A stretch of DNA of 64,000 bases from Anaerolineaceae bacterium (GTDB lineage: Bacteria; Chloroflexota; Anaerolineae; Aggregatilineales; Phototrophicaceae): assembly GCA_002699585.1 (NCBI GenBank), contig PABP01000014.1, forward strand, positions 744,001 through 808,000, in the 5' to 3' direction. The notes beneath the pieces are model-generated. The model made no database searches and was not told the origin of the DNA. It saw only the letters and a program-made list of their open reading frames with translations. A program made the position numbers and the translations under genes. Shown one piece after another: positions 2,165 to 43,545 of the stretch; the first letter of the stretch is position 1; every line of letters begins with the position of its first letter.

Positions 2165-2250
2165 AAGGTCACCTCGTTAGGGGATGAATAAATAATATAT
2201 AGTCATCGCATCTGGCAGCTTAAGGCGCAGCATGCTGGTATGCGAGTTTC

Positions 2251-2390
2251 GCTAGGCACTGAAGTGCCTAGCTCGCCAAAAGCCAAGTCCACTGAAGGGA
2301 CTGTGAAAACAAGTTTACGCAGCGGGTCAGAGTGCCTTTAGTGCACTTCCCGCTGCCCAGACATAGCCATATGACTTCAGTCTATGGCGG
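2251..2390. repeat. Four-hairpin structured repeat, copy A
   Basis: About 140 bp that recur, 41 kb away, at 43406-43545. Four consecutive inverted repeats are visible: a 9-bp stem with TGAA loop (2251-2272); AGTCC/GGACT (2286-2302); a nested hairpin of GCAGCGGG/CCCGCTGC (2319-2326 with 2349-2356) enclosing AGTGC/GCACT; and a stem around GACTTCAGTC (2366-2388). Hairpins 2 and 3 are almost identical between copies; 1 and 4 differ in sequence but still pair. It lies between two minus-strand genes and carries no open reading frame. No transposase is nearby. It could be a REP/MITE-like element or a structured RNA. Confidence 0.75.
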
Positions 2391-2434
2391 CGTAAAGAGG
2401 CATATGCTGCGCCTGTTTACGTTAGTAAGTACAT

Positions 2435-17953: not shown

Positions 17954-18010
17954 ACCACTATAGGCTCATCTTGTTTACGAGATTGACGGTCCCTAATCTC
18001 TAGTGAGTCG

Positions 18011-18057
18011 TAGGGACGCAGCACGCTGCGTCCGAACACATCAGCACGAGTGTTCAG
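18011..18057. repeat. Palindrome GGACGCAGC/GCTGCGTCC with a second weak hairpin
   Basis: GGACGCAGC (18014-18022) and GCTGCGTCC (18025-18033) make a 20-base palindrome; GAACAC/GTGTTC (18034-18055) pairs directly after it. Similar in design to the palindrome at 24708-24729. It lies between holA and the small membrane protein gene. Function unknown; the lack of a T-run argues against a terminator. Confidence 0.5.
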
Positions 18058-24679: not shown

Positions 24680-24707
24680 GTCTTTTTGGCAAGCACAATC
24701 AACCCTA

Positions 24708-24729
24708 GGGGCACGACATATCGTGCCCT
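24708..24729. repeat. Short palindrome GGGCACGA-CATA-TCGTGCCC
   Basis: An 8-bp perfect stem (24709-24716 with 24721-24728), 28 bases after the esterase stop. No strong T-run follows, though it may still end transcription. The same design as the palindrome at 18014-18033, differing in sequence. Confidence 0.5.
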
Positions 24730-43330: not shown

Positions 43331-43405
43331 GTGTGGAGTGGAACCCAATAGGTCAGTACTAACTTACATACACGGGTTTAAAGTAGTCTACTCAAATAAT
43401 GCCCC

Positions 43406-43545
43406 GCCGGAAGCTGAGAGCGTCCGGCTAGCCAAAAGCCAAGTCCACTAAAGGGACTCATTACGCGAGTTGGCAGCGGGTCAGAGTGCCTTCAGTGCAC
43501 TTCCCGCTGCATAAACATAGCCGTATGACTTCAGTCATCGGCAGC
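43406..43545. repeat. Four-hairpin structured repeat, copy B
   Basis: Second copy of the element at 2251-2390, same orientation and nearly the same length. First stem here is GCCGGA/TCCGGC (43406-43411 with 43423-43428), wholly different in sequence from copy A but still paired. AGTCC/GGACT (43442-43458), GCAGCGGG/CCCGCTGC with inner AGTGC/GCACT (43473-43510), and GCCG-ATGAC-TTCA-GTCAT-CGGC (43520-43542) follow. In the last stem, an A-T pair of copy A is replaced by a G-C pair here. Flanks an AT-richer islet. Confidence 0.75.

Follow-up and report, generated by a model that had tools for sequence, protein, structure and literature searches.

Inverted dimers of a covarying two-hairpin repeat and their association with TnpA subclass 1.2 genes in Chloroflexota and Cyanobacteria

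Two four-hairpin elements in the 64-kb window

The window, meaning the whole 64-kb stretch of DNA analysed, contains two elements of about 143 bp with four hairpins each, designated copies A and B (Table 1). Both were present as originally predicted, at 2251 and 43406, and could be read directly from the sequence; all four inverted repeats were found in matching order in both copies. In a blastn search of the draft genome from which the window derives, copy A matched copy B with 85% identity over 112 bp (E = 1e-28), and the four-hairpin likeness of the two is far beyond chance. At the fourth pair of H4, copy A has A-T and copy B has G-C, again as predicted. The H1 hairpins had been described as having no sequence in common. 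Their foot and flank (CGC...GCTMGCC) align between the copies, however, and only the inner stem differs. The outer stem of H3 in copy A is GCAGCGGG/CCCGCTGC. In the outer H4 stem of copy B, pairs 5-6 are mismatched and an inner ATGAC/GTCAT stem is formed instead.

Two covariance models were used. R1 described the right half (H3-H4) with pairing in H3 only; it also matched the left halves on the opposite strand, missed many units and was superseded by R2, in which both hairpins are paired and which was built from 49 units. Model E-values are rough. The R1 match to the right unit of copy A spans the full 73 nt. In the 64-kb window R2 gave four matches, two units per element and one per strand, all with E < 1e-12, and the next best match had E = 0.95; because the training units include the window copies these scores are partly by construction, and the useful part is the clean gap to the next match.

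Table 1. Positions of the elements, hairpins, units and outer repeat in the window.
Feature	Positions	Strand	Remarks
Copy A	2248-2391		four hairpins
Copy A, H1	2251-2272
Copy A, H2	2286-2302
Copy A, H3	2319-2356
Copy A, H4	2366-2388
Copy A, left unit	2248-2302	minus	H2 and H1 read on minus; foot degenerate, CGAG; R2 56.2 bits, E = 4e-13; R1 match on same strand
Copy A, right unit	2319-2391	plus	H3, TAG foot 2364-2366, H4, tail GGC; R2 2331-2391, 65 bits, E = 1.9e-15
Copy B	43403-43545		four hairpins
Copy B, H1	43406-43428
Copy B, H2	43442-43458
Copy B, H3	43473-43510
Copy B, H4	43520-43542
Copy B, left unit	43403-43458	minus	H2 and H1; foot CTAG; R2 56.9 bits, E = 2.6e-13
Copy B, right unit	43473-43545	plus	H3, TAG foot 43518-43520, H4, tail AGC; R2 43485-43545, 58.2 bits, E = 1.2e-13
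Outer inverted repeat enclosing copy A (perfect, 11 bp)	2223-2414 (arms 2223-2233, 2404-2414)	.

The outer inverted repeat was significant in copy A and in a minority of 32 dimers, and as only this minority has one, it was rejected as a defining part of the family. Outer inverted repeats also enclose the dimers at loci L101, L100, L109, L122 and L115, with a sequence that varies between genomes. REP dimers inserted in larger palindromes have been described (PMC3733652), and by analogy the outer repeats seen here are perhaps the same phenomenon.

Unit anatomy and covariation

The four hairpins of an element belong together in pairs and do not stand on their own. Read as the reverse complement, H1-H2 is the same unit as H4-H3, so that each element consists of two two-hairpin units arranged as an inverted dimer, with their feet on the inner side. 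Dimers measured 118-165 bp and have inverted ends (GCCGC...GCGGC). Each unit starts with an H3-type hairpin; a spacer and a TAG foot follow, and an H4-type hairpin comes last. A typical H4 has 6 outer pairs, an optional bulged base, 2-3 inner pairs and a TTNA loop, and H3 has 5 pairs plus a closing pair, with a loop of similar type. An extra outer H3 stem is often present in one dimer partner, and this long/short asymmetry recurs in genomes G030 and G015. The TAG of the foot is conserved (T 52/61, A 60/61, G 61/61) and any base may precede it (T 19, A 17, G 14, C 11); in cyanobacterial units the foot is mostly TTAG.

Standard pairs made up 96.4% of cells in the alignment of 49 Chloroflexota units (A3), versus 79.0% when shuffled and at most 44.7% when partners were slid, a percentage inflated by the selection of rows partly for well-formed hairpins. 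Two-sided changes, which are less affected by that selection, occurred at 12 of 15 pairs (137 cells versus 42.4 when shuffled). The covariation value was 0.520 versus 0.198 in shuffled alignments, and none of 500 shuffles was as high. Cyanobacterial units (n = 27), taken directly from model matches, gave 0.639 versus 0.195. These figures bear out the original claim that selection or spread acts on structure; stems that vary without keeping their pairing, the observation said to count against it, were looked for and not seen.

Covariation in stems, together with strong folding as RNA on both strands, might also be expected of a structured RNA, either a cis-regulatory or a small RNA, that is multicopy by chance. 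Both strands of both copies folded better than dinucleotide shuffles, as DNA or as RNA (z -3.1 to -5.5). On the other hand, Rfam 15 gave no matches in the window at the gathering score, a single element carries the unit on each strand in the form of an inverted dimer, and copies stand at unrelated genes with a single-strand-DNA transposase as the constant neighbour (see below). Furthermore, G-T pairs were hardly more frequent than A-C mismatches (9 versus 6 among 615 stem cells, loop-closing pairs excluded), a ratio that, with small numbers, suggests DNA more than RNA. Covarying stems in a multicopy hairpin repeat are no sure sign of RNA, and we regard an RNA here as very improbable.

Dispersal and association with TnpA subclass 1.2 genes

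Two copies had been predicted, and about a dozen loci were found in the draft genome (6.70 Mb, 42 contigs), some with the H3-H4 unit only. Copy A as a blastn query matched 12 places, one of which is copy B, and R2 gave 17 unit matches. All 12 elements examined lay outside ORFs of at least 80 aa, and no plasmid-borne copies were found. R2 matches were obtained in 34 of the 61 genomes searched, with highest counts of at least about 90 per genome; between genomes of one family the unit copy number ranged from 0 to that level. The same-genus genome had one weak R2 match, and two empty-site searches there met regions that are not syntenic. Copies were sharp-ended. Fifteen dimers in G030 were alike from tail to tail, as were six near-identical dimers in G006; in both genomes the flanks were mostly unrelated, with a few similar just outside. 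Judged from these alignments, tail-to-tail likeness with unrelated flanks is the mark of dispersed mobile DNA. Whole-genome searches of eight cyanobacteria found between 1 and 92 units per genome, for example 92 in Hormoscilla, 77 in Cyanosarcina and 34 in Nostoc mirabile. A near-exact H3 consensus gave no matches in named genomes, as expected if the stems covary.

REPs have been co-opted for host roles as terminators, mRNA stabilisers and landmarks. The repeats here could likewise serve the host as terminators, mRNA 3'-end stabilisers or chromosome landmarks, with TnpA domesticated for their upkeep and spread being secondary. All copies examined in the draft genome being intergenic, weak terminator-like matches in both window copies, and a tnpA that is low-copy and not itself IS-like (PMC6006769) fit this proposal. 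However, the T-tails were poor, the copies were tied to no gene class, and the range of copy number within one family tells against it; it is considered unlikely.

Among the Y1_Tnp genes in the 61 genomes were IS200-type genes and another group marked by the motif Y---Q--HH. In a tree the proteins of this other group were set apart from the IS200 type as one clade with full support. HUH and Y motifs are present in them, and they have clear matches to the solved structures of the IS608 and ISDra2 transposases. Y---Q--HH was present in 21 of 23 proteins, WQ in 23/23, and DH[VIL]H or NH[VI]H in 22/23, the exception being L081 with THVH. TnpA_Y1 subclass 1.2 is described as having DH[IV]H, WQ and YIKNQKEHH motifs, a length of about 148 aa and low copy number (PMC6006769). 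By motifs and our own tree, the unit-flanked genes are assigned to TnpA_Y1 subclass 1.2.

With R2, units were found beside 13/13 subclass-1.2 loci in relatives, two of which (L082, L083) had weak matches only. The units there form minus/plus dimers or stand singly to one or the other side of the gene, and L080 has an array of 13. At other Y1 loci, units were found beside one of nine IS200-type genes (one weak partial match) and none of seven long-ORF Y1-like genes; the three class-2 RAYT genes of the draft genome had none. The difference between subclass-1.2 and other loci was significant (Fisher p = 5e-7) with L072, L075 and L081, which gave five R2 training rows, left out. In G030 a dimer lies just upstream of the tnpA start codon, with stems as in the 14 dispersed G030 dimers. 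The gene was present in one to four copies per genome, mostly one, versus dozens of units. The earlier statement that no transposase is associated thus holds within the window and fails for the family, in which the unit flanks tnpA subclass 1.2 in many relatives.

The association was then examined in 80 subclass-1.2 loci of named genomes from a GTDB protein search, about half in Chloroflexota (mostly Anaerolineae) and half in cyanobacteria, including some relatives from the first set (e.g. L167 = L073). R2 for this test was trained only on units from relatives of the window, and the threshold was E ≤ 0.01 within 600 bp. Units were found near the gene at 55/80 loci (28/37 Chloroflexota, 26/41 cyanobacteria and 1/2 others), so that the association spans phyla, and on both sides of the gene at 24 loci. 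At the remaining 25/80 loci no unit was found under these settings. The zone up to 600 bp from the gene contained 144 of 156 unit matches and made up 42% of flank sequence.

Units were found in 14/14 relatives with a strong subclass-1.2 gene (median 45.5) versus 20/47 without (median 0), with p = 2.6e-6, which is optimistic as the genomes share ancestry. The relatives are mostly fragmented metagenome assemblies, and a missing gene is weak evidence. Three draft assemblies (G006, G021, G056) had more than 50 units each and no subclass-1.2 gene, and G015 had 33 units with the gene only as a fragment with a stop, which would fit a loss of the gene once the units had spread. Our own draft assembly yielded no subclass-1.2 gene despite its 17 unit matches, so its copies are probably orphaned, being leftovers of a lost gene or dependent on a gene missing from the assembly. 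A decayed subclass-1.2 gene was sought there, and the sole extra weak match was a class-2 RAYT. The IS200-type gene of this genome (L013) was rejected as partner for having no adjoining units, and so were the class-2 RAYT genes.

Proposed mechanism and relation to known systems

The element is likely to be a REP/REPIN-like non-autonomous mobile DNA whose unit is a single-stranded DNA substrate of TnpA subclass 1.2. When DNA becomes single-stranded, the hairpins of the unit would fold; TnpA subclass 1.2 would bind the folded units by their shape and foot, and by cutting and rejoining them would spread copies into intergenic sites. We infer recognition, cutting and transposition by this protein from the evidence above. 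TnpA_REP of E. coli requires both a foot motif and a hairpin with a bulge (PMC8266576), and the units here would fit a similar logic. Three roles were originally left open: RNA, DNA fold-back or passive mobile element. The evidence points to the last of these, with the element being recognised as a DNA fold-back.

The original prediction also raised the solo end of a known transposon as an objection. This is partly relevant, since single units flank tnpA in inverted orientation at L078, L081 and L083. Taken with the inverted ends of the dimer, these loci could point to a MITE of a double-strand (DDE) transposon with the dimer as its terminal inverted repeats. The gene beside the units encodes a Y1 HUH protein, however, the stems covary while the end sequence is not fixed, and inspection by eye showed no target-site duplication at the dimers of the draft genome; a MITE is considered highly improbable. 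An equally small chance is given to the units being ends of a classic IS200/IS605-type insertion sequence that has lost its gene. By profile, subclass 1.2 is nearest to IS200 TnpA. Yet units were absent at the IS200-type genes studied here, bar the one weak match in 9 loci, and the dimers are inverted, often tandem and far more numerous than the gene, which itself occurs mostly once per genome versus 11 times for the IS200-type gene in G001.

The putative mobile repeat with subclass 1.2 as its candidate enzyme can be compared with described groups. Like GTAG REPs, BIMEs, REPINs and REPtrons (PMC3733652, PMC3116915, PMC2817692, PMC8266576), the units are short, dispersed, mostly intergenic hairpin palindromes that form inverted dimers (BIME/REPIN) and arrays, with a conserved foot 5' of a hairpin, a low-copy Y1 gene flanked by its own repeats, and orphan genomes. 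They differ in having two hairpins, a foot that is nTAG and not GTAG, and subclass 1.2 instead of class-2 TnpA_REP (RAYT) as partner. No constant GT[AG]G foot lies immediately 5' of the hairpin, and the three class-2 genes of the draft genome have no flanking units; because of this the element is not placed within the GTAG REP superfamily. With IS200/IS605 and TnpA subclass 1.1 (IS608, ISDra2) the system shares an HUH/Y1 enzyme and imperfect subterminal hairpins, whereas the units here occur as inverted dimers scattered with no gene accompanying them, tnpA has a low copy number, and units bounding a multicopy, near-identical tnpA were not found. The Y1 genes of class 3 and subclass 2.6, for which 'atypical secondary structures' are described (PMC6006769), are alike in being flanked by multicopy hairpins that have no GTAG foot; the proteins and host phyla are others, and the class 3 foot is CnGA.

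The neighbour proteins share HuH, W and Y motifs and length with subclass 1.2 of Quentin et al. 2018 (PMC6006769), which was published without REP ('no' in the survey table) and mostly from Cyanobacteria and Bacteroidetes; here, in contrast, a hairpin partner is present and the gene is frequent in Chloroflexota. The automatic REP search of that survey used GT[AG]G feet, and may have missed these units because such feet are absent from them. Subclass-1.2 proteins are widespread and had no known DNA partner in that survey, which was met in a literature search of openly licensed papers; a covarying, dispersed hairpin repeat next to them in two phyla is a concrete candidate substrate. We lean slightly towards a broader proposal: TnpA subclass 1.2, published as lacking both IS ends and REPs, would have its own REP system of two-hairpin, nTAG-footed units in inverted dimers, conserved across Chloroflexota and Cyanobacteria. 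This system would have its origin on the IS200 side of the family, independently of class-2 RAYTs and GTAG REPs, and the recognised module would be the hairpin pair and not one hairpin. The results suggest that single-strand transposases gave rise to REP-like systems on more than one occasion and that GTAG-keyed searches miss such repeats.

Other repeats and Y1 genes were seen. The draft genome has a second, canonical REP system with three class-2 RAYT-like genes (L132, L133, L134) below the NCBIfam cut-off. At L132 (G000:C28, about 646 kb), GTAG-tagged palindromes lie at 1057-1084 and 1435-1462, one upstream of the gene and one inside it. Single GTAGGGRC-type palindromes like the REP of this second system occur at window positions 24705-24728 and 18010-18033, a number within chance expectation, and one adjoins an element copy in the left flank of L005. 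The IS200-type tnpA at L013 (1438-1950; C22 of the draft genome, about 123.5 kb) lies amid several hairpins, and its type has 11 copies with identical scores in the same-genus genome G001. Y1_Tnp-like matches were also seen inside frames of ~600-1250 aa at G000:C23:574489-574815 (L014) and, in many relatives, at L085-L091; this Y1-like domain is possibly domesticated and fused into a large protein.
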